NCBI GenBank assembly: GCA_027486345.1
Contig: JAIXPH010000025.1
Coordinates: 1-47,814, forward strand
Source: Paracoccaceae bacterium
GTDB lineage: Bacteria > Pseudomonadota > Alphaproteobacteria > Rhodobacterales > Rhodobacteraceae
Length of the DNA stretch: 47,814 nucleotides
Direction: 5' to 3'
Numbering within the stretch: the first letter of the stretch is position 1; every line of letters begins with the position of its first letter. The notes beneath the pieces were generated by a model. That model saw nothing but the letters and a program-made list of their open reading frames with translations. It was not told the DNA's origin and searched no databases. Shown one piece after another: positions 20,647 to 47,814 of this stretch. Made by a program: the position numbers and the translations under genes.

Positions 20647-20802
20647 TCAGATATAGCGCTCGCGAAACAGGCCCCGCTCGATTTGACGTTGGCGGTTTTC
20701 AAGGTCGATCCGGTCAACCGCGCTGTCGAGATAGGCCCGCTCCAGATCCGCACGGTTGGGAATATGGAAGGCGCGGATGAACTTCTTCACGTTTTCGAAC
20801 AT
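20647..20802 (-). CDS. DUF3563 small protein
   Basis: A 51-residue protein starting MFENVKKFIRAFHIPNRADL, with the family's IDLExRQRQIERGLF segment at the C-terminus. The frame is open further upstream, but ATG 20802 has an excellent SD (AGGAG, 7 bases away). The function of DUF3563 is unknown; such proteins are common as single small genes in alpha- and betaproteobacteria. A palindrome TTGCTGCA-t-TGCAGCAA lies 81-97 bases upstream. The 130-base gap towards rnpB contains a weak 6-bp hairpin (20597-20613) and nothing else visible. Confidence 0.85.
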   Translation of the reverse strand: MFENVKKFIRAFHIPNRADLERAYLDSAVDRIDLENRQRQIERGLFRERYI

Positions 20803-20882: not shown

Positions 20883-20899
20883 TTGCTGCATTGCAGCAA
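20883..20899. promoter_or_regulatory. TTGCTGCA/TGCAGCAA palindrome upstream of DUF3563
   Basis: An 8-bp perfect inverted repeat with a 1-base centre, 81 bases from the DUF3563 start. It resembles CTGC-N-GCAG type operators such as those reported for the PHB regulator PhaR in Rhodobacterales. Similar elements occur upstream of the DUF1127 gene (47070-47118). Operator function is inferred. Confidence 0.45.
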
Positions 20900-20933: not shown

Positions 20934-21064
20934 CCCCCTCACCCTGCCCTCTCCCCCAAGGGGAGAGGGGGGCTTCATCCTGACAGGGACATCCCCATGC
21001 GACTCCGACGGCCTGCCGGATCGCGTCCCCTCTCCCCTCGGGGGAGAGGGTCAGGGTGAGGGGG
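20934..21064. repeat. CCCTCTCCCC/GGGGAGAGGG paired palindromic repeat
   Basis: Two GAGAGGG-type hairpins (20946-20970 and 21028-21050 approximately) are themselves nested in a large inverted repeat. The left arm, CCCCCTCACCCTGCCCTCTC onward from 20935, pairs with the right arm, GGGGAGAGGGTCAGGGTGAG up to 21064, with a single-base bulge. The structure ends 3 bases before the recN stop codon. This CCCTCACCCT...GGGGAGAGGG type of palindrome is a common dispersed intergenic repeat in GC-rich proteobacteria. It may terminate or stabilise recN mRNA. The gap 20803-21066 otherwise holds only the upstream region of DUF3563. Confidence 0.75.
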
Positions 21065-21066
21065 CA

Positions 21067-44684: not shown

Positions 44685-45200
44685 TCACACCCCCGTGTCG
44701 TCGCTCAGCAGCGACAGGATGTCCATGTCCTCGGGCAGGTCGGCAAGGTCGTCTTCCGCCGCGCGCAGGATATCGGCGTCATAGGTCGCGGCCTTCCATA
44801 TCTGGAACGTGTCCAGCGCGCCCGCGAACACCGCCTCGGCCCCCTTGGCCAGATCATCGGCCCCGATGCCGATCTTGTCGCGCACCTTGGCGGGCAGGAC
44901 GATGCGACCGTCGTCGTCAATCTCGATGGTGGCCGACAGGGTGATCAGGTTGCGCTCAAGGATGCGGCGCTTTTGCGATCCCAGCGGCAAGGCGCGGATG
45001 CGCGCCTCAAGCCGTGCGGCCTCGGCAATCGTGTAGCATTCGGTGAATTTGCGGCGCTCGTCGCCATAGACCATGACGATGCGCTTGCGGGTGCTGTCCG
45101 GATCGCCAGCTTCGAGGACACGGCGAAAGGCTGCCGGGATCGACACCCGCGCCTTGCCATCCACCTTTTGGGTGAACTCGCCTCTGAACGCCTCGGACAT
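44685..45200 (-). CDS. mraZ: transcriptional regulator MraZ
   Basis: A 171-residue DNA-binding protein with two SpoVT/AbrB-like halves: FRGEFTQKVDGKARVSIPAAFRRVLE (about 4-29) and TLSATIEIDDDGRIVLPAKVRDKIGI (about 85-110). Family knowledge: MraZ represses its own operon through tandem TGGG repeats spaced 10 bp, and such repeats are present at 45479-45542. I start at ATG 45200; a GTG 33 bases upstream is in frame, and SD-like AAGG/AAGGAG occur for both. A long structured leader precedes it. Confidence 0.94.
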   Translation of the reverse strand: MSEAFRGEFTQKVDGKARVSIPAAFRRVLEAGDPDSTRKRIVMVYGDERRKFTECYTIAEAARLEARIRALPLGSQKRRILERNLITLSATIEIDDDGRIVLPAKVRDKIGIGADDLAKGAEAVFAGALDTFQIWKAATYDADILRAAEDDLADLPEDMDILSLLSDDTGV

Positions 45201-45267
45201 GGGCCTTGCGGCTCCTTCTTGCTCGGCAGCCACACCATTTTCCGTTCACGGGTCTGTGAAACGGAAA

Positions 45268-45303
45268 CGGCGGATCGTGCTGCTGCCACTGCACGATCCG
45301 CCG
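45268..45303 (-). terminator. intrinsic terminator/attenuator in the mraZ leader
   Basis: Perfect 13-bp arms, CGGCGGATCGTGC (45268-45280) and its complement (45291-45303), with a 10-base loop. On the mraZ strand the stem is followed by TTTCCGTTTC. Placed between promoter and mraZ, it should stop most transcripts before the dcw operon. Confidence 0.8.
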
Positions 45304-45478
45304 CCTGTCCCATCGCTGGGCGTCCAGCTACGCGCGCCGCTTGGGGGAAGCGTCTGCTCGCTCGCGCGCCGGATCTCTTACATTCAAGAAAGCGAGTGCC
45401 TGTATGAAGCCTGATCGTTCGCCTGTTCGGGGTCTTGCGCTGCCCCTGCGTTGTATCTGCTCGCCGTCTCGATGAAGT

Positions 45479-45542
45479 ATGGATGCCACGGGATTTCATG
45501 GGTGGCAATGGAAAATTTTGGGAAAAGTTGGGTGAAGGCGGG
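45479..45542. promoter_or_regulatory. putative MraZ operator, seven 10-bp units
   Basis: GG occurs at exactly 10-bp intervals seven times on the + strand. The units are ATGG 45479, CGGG 45489, TGGG 45499, TGGA 45509, TGGG 45519, TGGG 45529 and CGGG 45539. MraZ is known to bind TGGGN repeats with this period. The array is about 280-340 bases from mraZ and reads CCCA in the mraZ sense. Confidence 0.6.
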
Positions 45543-45597
45543 CAAGCGCCATAAGGGCTTGCGCGGCAGGCACCGCCACACCGTGAAAACAGCCCTA

Positions 45598-45603
45598 GTT
45601 ATA
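45598..45603 (-). promoter_or_regulatory. possible -10 element for the mraZ leader
   Basis: TATAAC on the - strand (45603-45598) would place a start near 45590, just upstream of the MraZ repeat array, which is the arrangement known in E. coli. No good -35 is found at 16-18 bases, so this is a weak call. Confidence 0.3.
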
Positions 45604-45748
45604 GCGGAGCGGACACAAACAGCCCCAAGATGTGCCAAGCCTTGGCCCGTCCCGGCGCGCCCCATCTTTTCCCGGCGATTGTGGCTTTTTGTCAAATCCA
45701 TGGCCTGTTCACGGACGCTCGCGCCCGCGTGACGGGCGGAAATGGCAA

Positions 45749-45773
45749 AAGTCCGGGGGTTCGCCCCGGACTT
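45749..45773 (-). terminator. Rho-independent terminator of mrp
   Basis: A perfect 10-bp stem AAGTCCGGGG (45749-45758) with its complement (45764-45773) and a 5-base loop. On the - strand it runs into TTTTGCC. It lies 78 bases after the mrp stop and insulates mrp from the mraZ leader. Confidence 0.8.
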
Positions 45774-45850
45774 CCCATGAATTCCCACCGAAGTGATTCG
45801 CTGTGATCCGCTGCGCTTATCGCGTCCCGTCTGATCCCGGCGCCGCGCGC

Positions 45851-46924
45851 TCAGGCCATCCCGCCCGCCACCAGCCGATGCGCCAGCCGGGCATAAGCCT
45901 CGGCCACCGTGCCATCCCCCGCCGCGATGGGCGTGCCGCTGTCGCCTGCGATCCGCACCTCAAGCGCCAAGGGGATTTCGCCAAGGAAGGGCAGGTCCAG
46001 CTTCGCCGCCTCGGCCGCCACGCCGCCATGGCCGAAGATATGCGCCTCATGCCCGCAATTGGGGCAGATGTAGGTGGACATGTTCTCGATCAGACCGAGC
46101 ACCGGGGTTTTCAGCTTCTGGAACATGTCCAGAGCTTTGCGCGCGTCCAGCAGCGCCACGTCTTGCGGGGTGGAGACGACGATGGCCCCGGTCAGTTGCG
46201 TGCGTTGGCACAGCGTCAGCTGGATGTCCCCGGTGCCCGGCGGCAGATCTACGATCAGCACATCCAGCCGCCCCCAATCCACCTGCGTCAGCAATTGCTG
46301 CAACGCGCCCATGATCATCGGCCCGCGCCAGATCACGGCCTCATCCTCTTTCAACATCAGACCTATCGACATCAGGGTGACGCCATGCGCGTGCAGGGGT
46401 TCGATGGTCTTGCCATCCGGGCTGGCCGGGCGTTTGGAGACCCCCATCATGCGCGGCTGGCTGGGGCCATAGATATCGGCGTCCAACAGTCCGACCCGCC
46501 GCCCCTGCCGCGCCAAGGCCACGGCGAGGTTCGACGACACCGTCGATTTGCCCACACCGCCCTTGCCCGAGGCGACCGCAATGATCCGGTCCACCCCGGT
46601 GATCCGCTGCGGCCCACCCTGTTGCGGCGTGGGATGCTGGCCGATCTTCAGGCTGGGGGCTGGGGGTTTCGCCGCAGGGCCATGCGCCGTCATCACCACC
46701 TGCACCGAGGTGACGCCGGGCAGCGCCCGCAGCGCGGCTTCGGCCTGCGCCTGCGCGGGGGCCAGAGCGCGCGCCTCCTCCGGGGTTGCCGCCTCGATCA
46801 CGAAGCGAATCGCGCCCGCTTCGACCGTCAACGCACGCAAGAGGTCACGTGACACCAGAGTCCCGCCGCCGGGCAGAGCCAAACCCGCCAGAACCTCGAT
46901 CACCGCTTCGCGCGTCACGCCCAT
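45851..46924 (-). CDS. mrp: Mrp/ApbC iron-sulfur cluster carrier ATPase
   Basis: A 357-residue P-loop NTPase. An N-terminal MIP18/DUF59 domain (about 1-85) precedes the deviant Walker [22 protein letters not shown] (about 116-136), followed by [16 protein letters not shown] (about 145-160) and [13 protein letters not shown] (about 222-234). The metal-binding CxxC is in [16 protein letters not shown] (about 287-302). It transfers Fe-S clusters to apoproteins. It has its own terminator and is divergent from the DUF1127/ccsR unit. Confidence 0.95.
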
Positions 46925-47038: not shown

Positions 47039-47118
47039 GTTGAATATTTTGTGACGATCAGCCATGCGATTGCTGCATGGCAGCATTGCAGACCCGGCGG
47101 ATTGTGCAGCTGCAGCAA
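47039..47118 (+). promoter_or_regulatory. upstream region of the DUF1127-ccsR unit: heat-shock-like promoter and palindromes
   Basis: GTTGAA (47039-47044) and CCATGC (47062-47067) resemble an RpoH-type promoter; RpoHI/RpoHII control is known for the Rhodobacter CcsR operon. Two imperfect palindromes follow: TTGCTGCATGGCAGCA (47070-47085) and TTGTGCAGCTGCAGCAA (47102-47118). They are related to the element at 20883-20899. Further upstream, TTTACCA (46999-47005) pairs with TGGTAAA (47031-47037). Functions are inferred. Confidence 0.4.
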
Positions 47119-47192
47119 TTGTCCCATGTTTACGGTAACGGCGCGACAGAGAACGCCAGAGAATGAACCGAACTAACTGAGGCTGATTGAAA

Positions 47193-47408
47193 ATGGCTTA
47201 TGTGAACACCTCCCGCGCCGCGTCTCTTTCGCTGGCTGACCGCTTTCCCGGTTTCCTTGCCTCGGTGAAAGCAGCCCTCGCCCGCCGCGCCGTCTACATG
47301 CAGACCGTCCGTGAACTGGACGCGCTGACCGACCGCGAACTCGCCGATCTCGGCATCTCGCGCCTCGACGTTCCGGCGCTGGCCCGCGAAGCGGCTTACG
47401 GCAAATAA
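47193..47408 (+). CDS. ccaF1: DUF1127 small RNA-binding protein (CcaF1-like)
   Basis: A 71-residue basic protein. The second half has the DUF1127 signature TVRELDALTDRELADLGISR (about residues 35-54), and the rest is helical and Arg/Ala-rich. ATG 47193 is preceded by GAGG in ACTGAGGCTGATTGAAA; an in-frame TTG two codons upstream is unlikely. In Rhodobacter sphaeroides a DUF1127 protein (CcaF1) of this size is co-transcribed with four CcsR RNAs and affects their maturation. The same arrangement is seen here, so orthology is very likely. Confidence 0.88.
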   Translation: MAYVNTSRAASLSLADRFPGFLASVKAALARRAVYMQTVRELDALTDRELADLGISRLDVPALAREAAYGK

Positions 47409-47414
47409 GGTTTC

Positions 47415-47490
47415 TTGCTGAACCCCACCTCCTCCCGGGGTTCGTAGCAAAAGCGGCGGCACTTCTCCTCCTCCCTGGTGTCGCCGCACT
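47415..47490 (+). ncRNA. ccsR1: CcsR-type RNA 1 (two CCTCCTCCC hairpins)
   Basis: Hairpin 1 is GAACCCC (47420-47426) paired with GGGGTTC (47437-47443), and its loop is ACCTCCTCCC. Hairpin 2 has arms 47453-47462 and 47478-47487 (one G-U pair) with CCTCCTCCC at 47467-47475 in the loop. The loops are exact anti-Shine-Dalgarno sequences, the hallmark of the CcsR (cuckoo) RNA family. It begins directly after the DUF1127 stop, so it is probably cut from the 3' part of that mRNA. The ends are approximate. Confidence 0.8.
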
Positions 47491-47534
47491 TTGATCCGAA
47501 CGGAACGCAGACGCGTATACGTTCAAACCAGACC

Positions 47535-47608
47535 GAGCGGCCCGACCTCCTCCCCGGGCCAATCGTGCAAGCGGCGACCCGTCTCCTCCTCCCTGGGGTC
47601 GCCGCATC
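47535..47608 (+). ncRNA. ccsR2: CcsR-type RNA 2
   Basis: Hairpin 1 is GGCCCG (47539-47544) paired with CGGGCC (47555-47560), with loop ACCTCCTCCC identical to that of copy 1. Hairpin 2 has perfect 10-bp arms GCGGCGACCC (47571-47580) and its complement (47596-47605), with CCTCCTCCC at 47585-47593. It is separated from copy 1 by about 45 unpaired bases. Confidence 0.8.
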
Positions 47609-47635
47609 CTCTTCCGGGCCAGATGGCCCAAGATT

Positions 47636-47711
47636 TTCGCGCGGCCCTCTCCTCCTCCCATGGGCCGACGGAACCGCGGCGATCCCCTCCTCCTCCCTGG
47701 GATCGCCGCAC
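47636..47711 (+). ncRNA. ccsR3: CcsR-type RNA 3
   Basis: Hairpin 1 is CGGCCC (47642-47647) paired with GGGCCG (47662-47667), with CCTCCTCCC at 47651-47659. Hairpin 2 has perfect 11-bp arms GCGGCGATCCC (47676-47686) and its complement (47699-47709), with CCTCCTCCC at 47689-47697. It is preceded by a small GGGCC-agat-GGCCC hairpin that could be a processing signal. Confidence 0.82.
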
Positions 47712-47739
47712 CCCTTTCCGGGCCACATGGCCCAAGACT

Positions 47740-47814
47740 TTCGCGCGGCCCTCTCCTCCTCCCATGGGCCGACGGAACCGCGGCGATCCCCTCCTCCTCC
47801 CTGGGATCGCCGCA
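47740..47814 (+). ncRNA. ccsR4: CcsR-type RNA 4, at the window edge
   Basis: Nearly identical to copy 3 and offset by exactly 104 bases. Hairpin 1 is 47746-47771 with the motif at 47755-47763. Hairpin 2 is 47780-47813 with the motif at 47793-47801. The window ends one base after the last stem. This stem may serve as the terminator if T residues follow, or more copies may exist beyond the edge. Confidence 0.8.

Follow-up and report, generated by a model that had tools for sequence, protein, structure and literature searches.

The cuckoo RNA family and its CIN1 locus in alphaproteobacteria were reportedly described by Reinkensmeier and Giegerich in 2015. Such RNAs have free stems and a fixed loop motif and often lie beside a short DUF1127 gene, according to passages in PMC10253847 and PMC4504443. 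The closest described operon, CcaF1-CcsR1-4 (RSP_6037) of Rhodobacter (Cereibacter) sphaeroides, is reported to encode a 71-aa protein, CcaF1, and four CcsR RNAs behind an RpoHI/RpoHII promoter (PMC10253847). CcaF1 is described as binding RNA and RNase E as cutting the 3' UTR into the CcsR RNAs (PMC10253847, PMC8625941, PMC7866481), which are reported to target flhR mRNA (PMC8307010). The loop motif has been described as anti-Shine-Dalgarno (PMC3927594), and in the rhizobial RNAs NfeR1/alpha-r14 and SmelA075/SmelA099 each loop is given as CCUCCUCCC on variable stems (PMC3927594, PMC10746234). In Sinorhizobium, the regulator LsrB is reported to bind and activate the cuckoo RNA NfeR1, with a TGCA-N6-GCAT box at -72 to -57 (PMC10746234). 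VtlR is reported to activate three DUF1127 genes and the sRNA AbcR2 in Brucella (PMC12595884), and abcR1, atu1667 and vrsA in Agrobacterium (PMC7486931).

We analysed a 47,814-base stretch of DNA (the window), which is the whole of contig C42 of a Rhodobacteraceae genome. Judging from its sequence, we assign the 3' end of the window, with a probability of about 0.92, to a CcaF1-CcsR stress operon, that is, a CIN1 locus of the cuckoo RNA family. The locus itself is known biology; the new part is a box in its promoter and the regulatory circuit that this box suggests. As in R. sphaeroides, a 71-aa DUF1127 gene is followed directly by two-hairpin RNAs with CCUCCUCCC loops; an RpoH-type promoter is predicted upstream of the gene. 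Unlike that operon, which has four units, the present one has at least five and probably six or more. No T-run terminator was found here in C49:100-400, on the contig that continues the array, whereas R. sphaeroides has one according to PMC10253847, and the passages on R. sphaeroides mention no regulator box like the one described below. This comparison rests on Rfam and on papers, because R. sphaeroides was not identified among the loci that we compared. The loops and variable stems also resemble those of the rhizobial RNAs; NfeR1-type sRNAs, however, have three or four hairpins per RNA, whereas the units here have two and lie in a DUF1127 operon.

The DUF1127 gene and the CcsR-like units

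The gene and the units within the window are as follows.

47193..47408 (stop included), + strand: ccaF1-like gene for a 71-aa DUF1127 protein (ORF list, PF06568)
47410..47492, + strand: CcsR1-like unit 1, loops 47428-47436 and 47467-47475; RF02791 102.1 bits, fold z -4.9
47531..47610, + strand: CcsR-like unit 2, loops 47546-47554 and 47585-47593; RF02791 55 bits, fold z -3.8
47632..47714, + strand: CcsR-like unit 3, loops 47651-47659 and 47689-47697; RF02791 49.1 bits, fold z -5.6
47736..47814 (contig end), + strand: CcsR-like unit 4, loops 47755-47763 and 47793-47801; RF02791 41 bits, fold z -5.9

The 71-codon DUF1127 gene recognised in the first-pass annotation is borne out by Pfam, with a match to PF06568 at E 1.7e-13 and 50.5 bits against a cut-off of 23.3. 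The ORF list gives the product as 73 aa from an upstream TTG; from the ATG it is 71 aa, and its length is 71-72 aa in all 17 genus loci (our own and 16 others). As expected of a CIN1-type locus, this short gene lies directly upstream on the same strand, with loop 1 beginning 19 nt after its stop. The distance is 18-20 nt in 16 of the 17 genus loci and 47 nt in one.

Exact copies of CCTCCTCCC start at 47428, 47467, 47546, 47585, 47651, 47689, 47755 and 47793, all on the + strand, and nowhere else in the window. Eight copies compare with 0.48 expected and a maximum of 3 in any of 100 shuffles, and we rejected a chance origin of the motifs on these numbers. The earlier observation that all eight loops contain exactly this motif is correct: when the four units in the window and two on C49 were folded, all six gave a pair of hairpins that leave the motif unpaired (z -3.1 to -5.9), and CCUCCUCCC loops, again typical of CIN1 loci, account for 12 of the 12 loops in these units.

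A covariance search with the CcsR family, proposed as a check in the first-pass annotation, matched RF02791 to 47410-47492 at 102.1 bits against a cut-off of 65.3. Unit 1 is the only unit to pass; the other five score 41-55 bits. Since they fall below the gathering cut-off, and in this differ from the CcsR1 family as Rfam defines it, units 2 onward are called CcsR-like by loop, fold and position and are not Rfam members. The proposed CcaF1/CcsR assignment is upheld by the agreement of the CcsR1 match with the gene order, the genus-wide RpoH-like promoter and the published R. sphaeroides layout.

The stems call for a different description from the one first given, in which copies 1 and 2 had entirely different stems from copies 3 and 4. 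Second hairpins of all copies share GCGGCG/CGCCGC, and GGCCC/GGGCC in hairpin 1 is common to copies 2, 3 and 4. The sole real outlier is hairpin 1 of copy 1, with the stem GAACCCC/GGGGTTC. Copies 3 and 4, with 94% identity across 104 nt, are duplicates and therefore not independent witnesses.

Position 47814 is the last base of C42. Searching the whole genome with the CcsR1 model revealed two further units that open contig C49 of the same genome (C49:5-87 and C49:109-191), and a BenE-type transporter gene follows the last of them. Past the array, the C49 flank aligns at 86% over 1,099 columns with the relative G006, in which the locus is contiguous. A single base distinguishes the last 83 nt of C42 from the first 83 nt of C49, and the two ends do not overlap exactly. 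These are therefore probably different copies (at least six units), or else one copy with an error (five). We conclude from these sequences that the array comprises at least five units and probably six or more. The earlier count of four RNAs of two hairpins each is thus right for the window and incomplete for the array. Similarly, looking beyond 47814 for a terminator or further copies, as had been suggested, yielded the copies on C49 and 0 Rho-independent terminator-like sites after the last unit in C49:100-400. We do not regard such a terminator as a defining feature of the family. A pattern search found six motif pairs in the genome, all within the array on C42 and C49, and a second motif-pair locus was discarded on this ground.

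In six relatives (L067, L071, L085, L087, L094 and L098) the array ends with a hairpin whose C-rich loop is identical or nearly identical to the others, and a T run comes after it; the terminator there apparently serves as a cuckoo hairpin as well. Our own genome, unlike these, has no T run after its last hairpin. Given that arrays run off the contig end here and in 2 of the 16 other genus arrays, copy number can be undercounted.

Fixed loops and covarying stems among relatives

At E <= 0.001, RF02791 has matches in 17 of the 19 genomes of the genus and in 121 of the 149 of the family, with our own genome counted in both; 17 of 19 and 9 of 149, respectively, have matches over the Rfam cut-off. 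The CcsR1 model also matched, below the cut-off, in 1 of 14 control genomes (Thermus composti), so that weak single matches are no proof. Weak single matches of 25-30 bits lie off the main array in six genus genomes (G018:C1:3724821, G009:C7:230785, G011:C9:109848, G012:C1:1255358, G004:C1:32623 and G008:C216:2776) and may represent second cuckoo loci or chance.

For comparison we used the array of the window, 16 others from the genus and 23 from the family, the last drawn from the better of the 121 matches and not a random sample; a 101-nt stretch, L103, was left out. A separate set of named loci, found through the protein, consists of the best 80 of 419. Exact loops number 6-15 per array (median 9.5) in the 14 complete genus arrays and 2-14 (median 9) in the 23 family arrays. 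With up to 15 exact loops per stretch, these arrays differ from the '2 - 4 hairpins' of the cuckoo description in PMC4504443. Among the best 80 of 419 named loci, one or more loops follow the DUF1127 ORF in 78 and none does in two. In the DNA covered, none of the 80 has the motif ahead of the ORF on the same strand, nor on the opposite strand in the 1.5 kb after it. One named record, L184 (CP059262.1), titled Exiguobacterium profundum isolate SSD5 chromosome, contains a CcaF1-type gene 57% identical to ours and looks mislabelled.

Unit 1 is 92% identical on average between species of the genus (136 pairs). Mean identity among later units is 68% between genomes and 70% within one, and some genomes contain runs of identical copies; tandem duplication changes the copy number. 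The spacing of loops within a unit is 37-40 nt in 78 of 80 genus units, where units were defined as loop pairs 35-41 nt apart. The first-pass annotation had named relatives lacking the conserved loops as evidence that would tell against it. The relatives keep them: among hairpins found stem-first (GCGGCR...YGCCGC), which are present in 40 of 41 array stretches, 135 of 139 have the exact loop. The arms of the real hairpins also remain complementary. In the genus, complementarity averages 8.94 bp compared with 6.31 +/- 0.15 when right arms are re-dealt (135 distinct arm pairs from 166 loops), and in the family 10.31 bp compared with 6.42 +/- 0.12 (195 of 210). Compensatory changes on both sides were seen at all 11 stem positions across three loop registers that overlap, counted in hairpins chosen for four pairs adjoining the loop. 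The proposal that the loop is under selection while stems drift is therefore supported by relatives, in which loops persist and stems covary, although the comparison of stems within the window on which it was based was wrong. Arrays of this kind have a fixed first unit and later units that duplicate and diverge, with loops frozen and stems compensating.

Two other readings of the array have to be set against these patterns. It might serve mainly as a multivalent sponge or decoy, whose C-rich loops titrate CcaF1, Hfq or a C-rich-binding protein, and not as a source of separate antisense RNAs. Variation in loop number (6-15 in the genus, 2-14 in the family), together with fixed loops in later units that are 68% identical, fits such a dosage of binding sites. 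Counter to this, the 92% conservation of unit 1 is far above what a mere repeat would need, and in R. sphaeroides the units are reported to be cut out by RNase E (PMC8625941) and to target flhR mRNA (PMC8307010); we consider the sponge improbable. Far less probable still is that the repeats are coding or mobile, for example a repeat peptide or a REP-like element, instead of RNA genes. Long open frames cross the array in both orientations and copies 3 and 4 have the look of a recent duplication, but the stems covary by base pairing and all 6 motif pairs of the genome lie inside the CcsR array. Unit periods, moreover, fall into all three classes modulo 3 (21, 17 and 23 of 61), which rules out a coding repeat. 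We thus retain the CcaF1-CcsR operon as the best reading of the locus.

A conserved box upstream of the predicted RpoH-type promoter

The promoter region contains four elements, three of which overlap.

47061..47081, no strand assigned: dyad GCCATGC-N7-GCATGGC, overlapping the VtlR-like box; fits the generic LysR-type T-N11-A pattern
47071..47085, no strand assigned: dyad TGCTGCATGGCAGCA, at first taken for a PhaR box; overlaps the VtlR-like box
47074..47088, + strand: VtlR/LsrB-box-like element TGCATGGCAGCATTG, 1 mismatch to the VtlR motif on the other strand
47102..47130, + strand: predicted RpoH-type promoter, -35 TTG in TTGTGCA and -10-like CCCATGTT

T-N11-A is the generic pattern of sites for LysR-type regulators. 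The pattern of TTGTGCA followed by a CCCATGTT-type element recurs in 17 of 17 genus loci and in 26 of the 40 array loci scanned. The CTGC core of the TGCTGCATGGCAGCA dyad starts 29 bp before the -35 TTG in 23 of the 25 loci with both and 28 bp before it in two. More broadly, the stretch before ccaF1 in the 17 genus loci keeps AGCCATGC...TGCTGCATGGCAGCATTG...ATTGTGCANNTGCAGCA...CCCATGTT with small changes. The GCCATGC arm of the wider dyad is invariant in these 17 loci, and ATGC-N7-GCAT, present in 113 of 122 upstream stretches (a set that includes some genomes twice, once unnamed and once named), is the most widely kept element there. Other spacings in the 122 stretches are N9 (30), N4 (2), N5 (1) and N10 (1), with N6 and N8 at 0. 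Symmetry of the arms beside ATGC/GCAT is only modestly above chance (55 of 75 compared with a shuffle mean of 48.4; 19 of 1000 shuffles reach 55). We estimate from the -10-like element that transcription starts near 47138. Given this estimated start, the VtlR-like box would span roughly -64 to -50 and the wider dyad -77 to -57, a placement similar to that of the LsrB box of NfeR1, reported at -72 to -57 (PMC10746234). The spacing of the box differs, with TGCA-N6-GCAT for NfeR1 and TGCA-N5-GCAT here.

The VtlR motif given for Brucella in PMC12595884 is CAATGCAGCCATGCA, from which TGCATGGCAGCATTG differs at 1 of 15 positions; the published short form GCAT-N3-TG-N3-T fails here at its T, where the window has A. 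The VtlR motif with at most 2 mismatches was found in 17 of 17 genus loci, 19 of 23 family loci and 72 of the 80 named loci (best 80 of 419), compared with 0 of 340, 0 of 460 and 0 of 1,600, respectively, for scrambled motifs at the same threshold (0 of 2,400 altogether). Matches are poor at L097 (4 mismatches), L099 (6) and G021 (L269; 4), and 4 to 6 mismatches are found at 5 of the 80 named loci. Within the window, the motif at up to 3 mismatches is not rare (2 found, 2.5 expected), so that the case for a LysR-type regulator rests on the single mismatch, the place of the box and its conservation.

Taken together, these features lead us to suggest, with slightly less than even confidence, that a LysR-type regulator, recognising a VtlR/LsrB-like box just upstream of the predicted RpoH-type promoter, switches the CcaF1-CcsR operon across the Rhodobacteraceae. 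PMC11975290 describes LsrB as confined to Rhizobiales, so a different LysR-type protein would have to act here. The arrangement recalls the VtlR/LsrB regulon of Brucella and Agrobacterium, where DUF1127-type small proteins and sRNAs are paired under one box; it differs in that the passages on VtlR do not present AbcR and VrsA as cuckoo RNAs. If this suggestion is true, one regulator-DUF1127-sRNA circuit would be common to two alphaproteobacterial orders, on the Rhodobacteraceae side and in Rhizobiales, and redox or metabolite sensing would be added to sigma-factor control of ribosome-mimicking sRNAs. The conserved box makes such a common circuit of LysR-type regulator, DUF1127 protein and cuckoo RNA directly testable. 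Among the papers listed by our literature search, none names VtlR or LsrB together with CcsR; PMC12501420 names both CcaF1 and LsrB.

A different owner for the box would be PhaR, the PHB regulator, in which case carbon storage would control the array. Several observations speak for it. Perfect TGCTGC-N3-GCAGCA dyads number only five in the whole genome; one of the five separates phaC from a phasin-like gene (PF09361, slightly under its cut-off) next to phaR. The dyad is perfect at 15 of 17 genus ccaF1 promoters. In each of the 18 genus phaR loci a TGC dyad precedes the PhaR motif by 695-820 nt. In the 300 nt upstream, CTGC-N3/4-GCAG is present at 47 of the 80 named loci (best 80 of 419) compared with 4 of 74 for the control stretch. 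We also built a PhaR-box matrix from phaR upstream regions of 17 other genus genomes, which supplied 48 putative boxes scoring 24.35 on average and at least 18.84. In the window the ccaF1 site takes second place with 19.35, and the next unrelated site reaches 11.15, although CTGC-N3-GCAG sites score high by construction because the matrix was trained on sites picked by that pattern. Arguing against PhaR, the centre of the dyad is purine-N-pyrimidine in 48 of 48 training boxes. The ccaF1 site, despite a score inside the training range, does not fit this CTGC-R-N-Y-GCAG form; its centre is A-T-G, which the VtlR motif explains and PhaR does not, and A-T-G or A-T-A is the centre in 43 of the 47 named loci with the dyad (from the best 80 of 419). 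The phaR-bearing loci L081 and L083 have lost the left half of the dyad and kept GCCATGC-N7-GCATGGC. Two family genomes with CcsR loci have no phaR match: G021, complete in one contig, is without the TGC dyad and keeps CTATGC-N7-GCATAG, whereas G116 (84% complete) has the TGC dyad. Because the centre, the wider conservation of ATGC-N7-GCAT, L081/L083 and G021 all disagree with it, we regard ownership of the box by PhaR as unlikely and favour the LysR-type regulator.

Some neighbouring observations may be recorded here. Other TGC dyads in the genome include one on C36 inside a 456-aa ORF and one on C22 about 190 bp upstream of an ORF that is ParA-like by eye. The best window match to the PhaR-box matrix (27.96) is a perfect PhaR-type box, TGCTGCATTGCAGCA, at 20884-20898. 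It lies about 80 bp upstream of a 51-aa DUF3563-like ORF at 20647-20802 on the - strand (PF12086 at 21.4 bits, below the 26.9 cut-off), a candidate PhaR-controlled small protein. Motif arrays without a recognised DUF1127 ORF just upstream occur at L089, L099, L102 and L104. At L089, L102 and L104 a VtlR-box-like element with 2-3 mismatches is found 104-117 nt before the first loop, and cuckoo arrays without CcaF1 may therefore carry a VtlR-like promoter box.

Proposed operation and candidate targets

The loops of the array imitate the mRNA-binding tail of the ribosome. By analogy with R. sphaeroides, a single transcript would start at the RpoH-type promoter under stress induction, encode the 71-aa DUF1127 protein and continue across the two-hairpin units, of which there are at least five and probably six or more. 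RNase E, aided by binding of CcaF1, would then release CcsR RNAs some 80 nt long from the 3' part. The loops of these RNAs would expose the anti-Shine-Dalgarno sequence CCUCCUCCC and, during stress, would pair with G-rich ribosome-binding regions of target mRNAs, damping their translation or altering their stability.

Predicted target sites are leads only. GGAGGAGG-N3-12-ATG occurs in 26 places in the genome, compared with 4 for the pattern read backwards, and 6 of the 26 sites start ORFs of at least 374 aa. Pfam was run on 8 of the 26 ORFs: five of the six long ones have domains (ABC ATPase, TPP enzyme, periplasmic binding protein, acyl-CoA synthetase type and tetrapyrrole methylase), and L113, L120 and L122 have none. 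The full complement, GGGAGGAGG, precedes 4 of the 26 ATGs (L115, L119, L120 and L122). The known CcsR target flhR was not located in the target prediction for this genome.

Elsewhere in the window, a gap at 45234-45850 separates an ORF that is mraZ-like by eye (44685-45233, - strand) from an Mrp-type gene (45851-46924, - strand). In R. sphaeroides the sRNA UpsM is reported to derive from the mraZ 5' UTR (PMC7866481); an Rfam scan gave no match in this gap. An inverted repeat of the CCCTCTCCCC...GGGGAGAGGG type, seen by eye at 20937-21066, lies 3' of the RNase P RNA gene and before a RecN-like ORF, and is perhaps a REP-type or terminator element.
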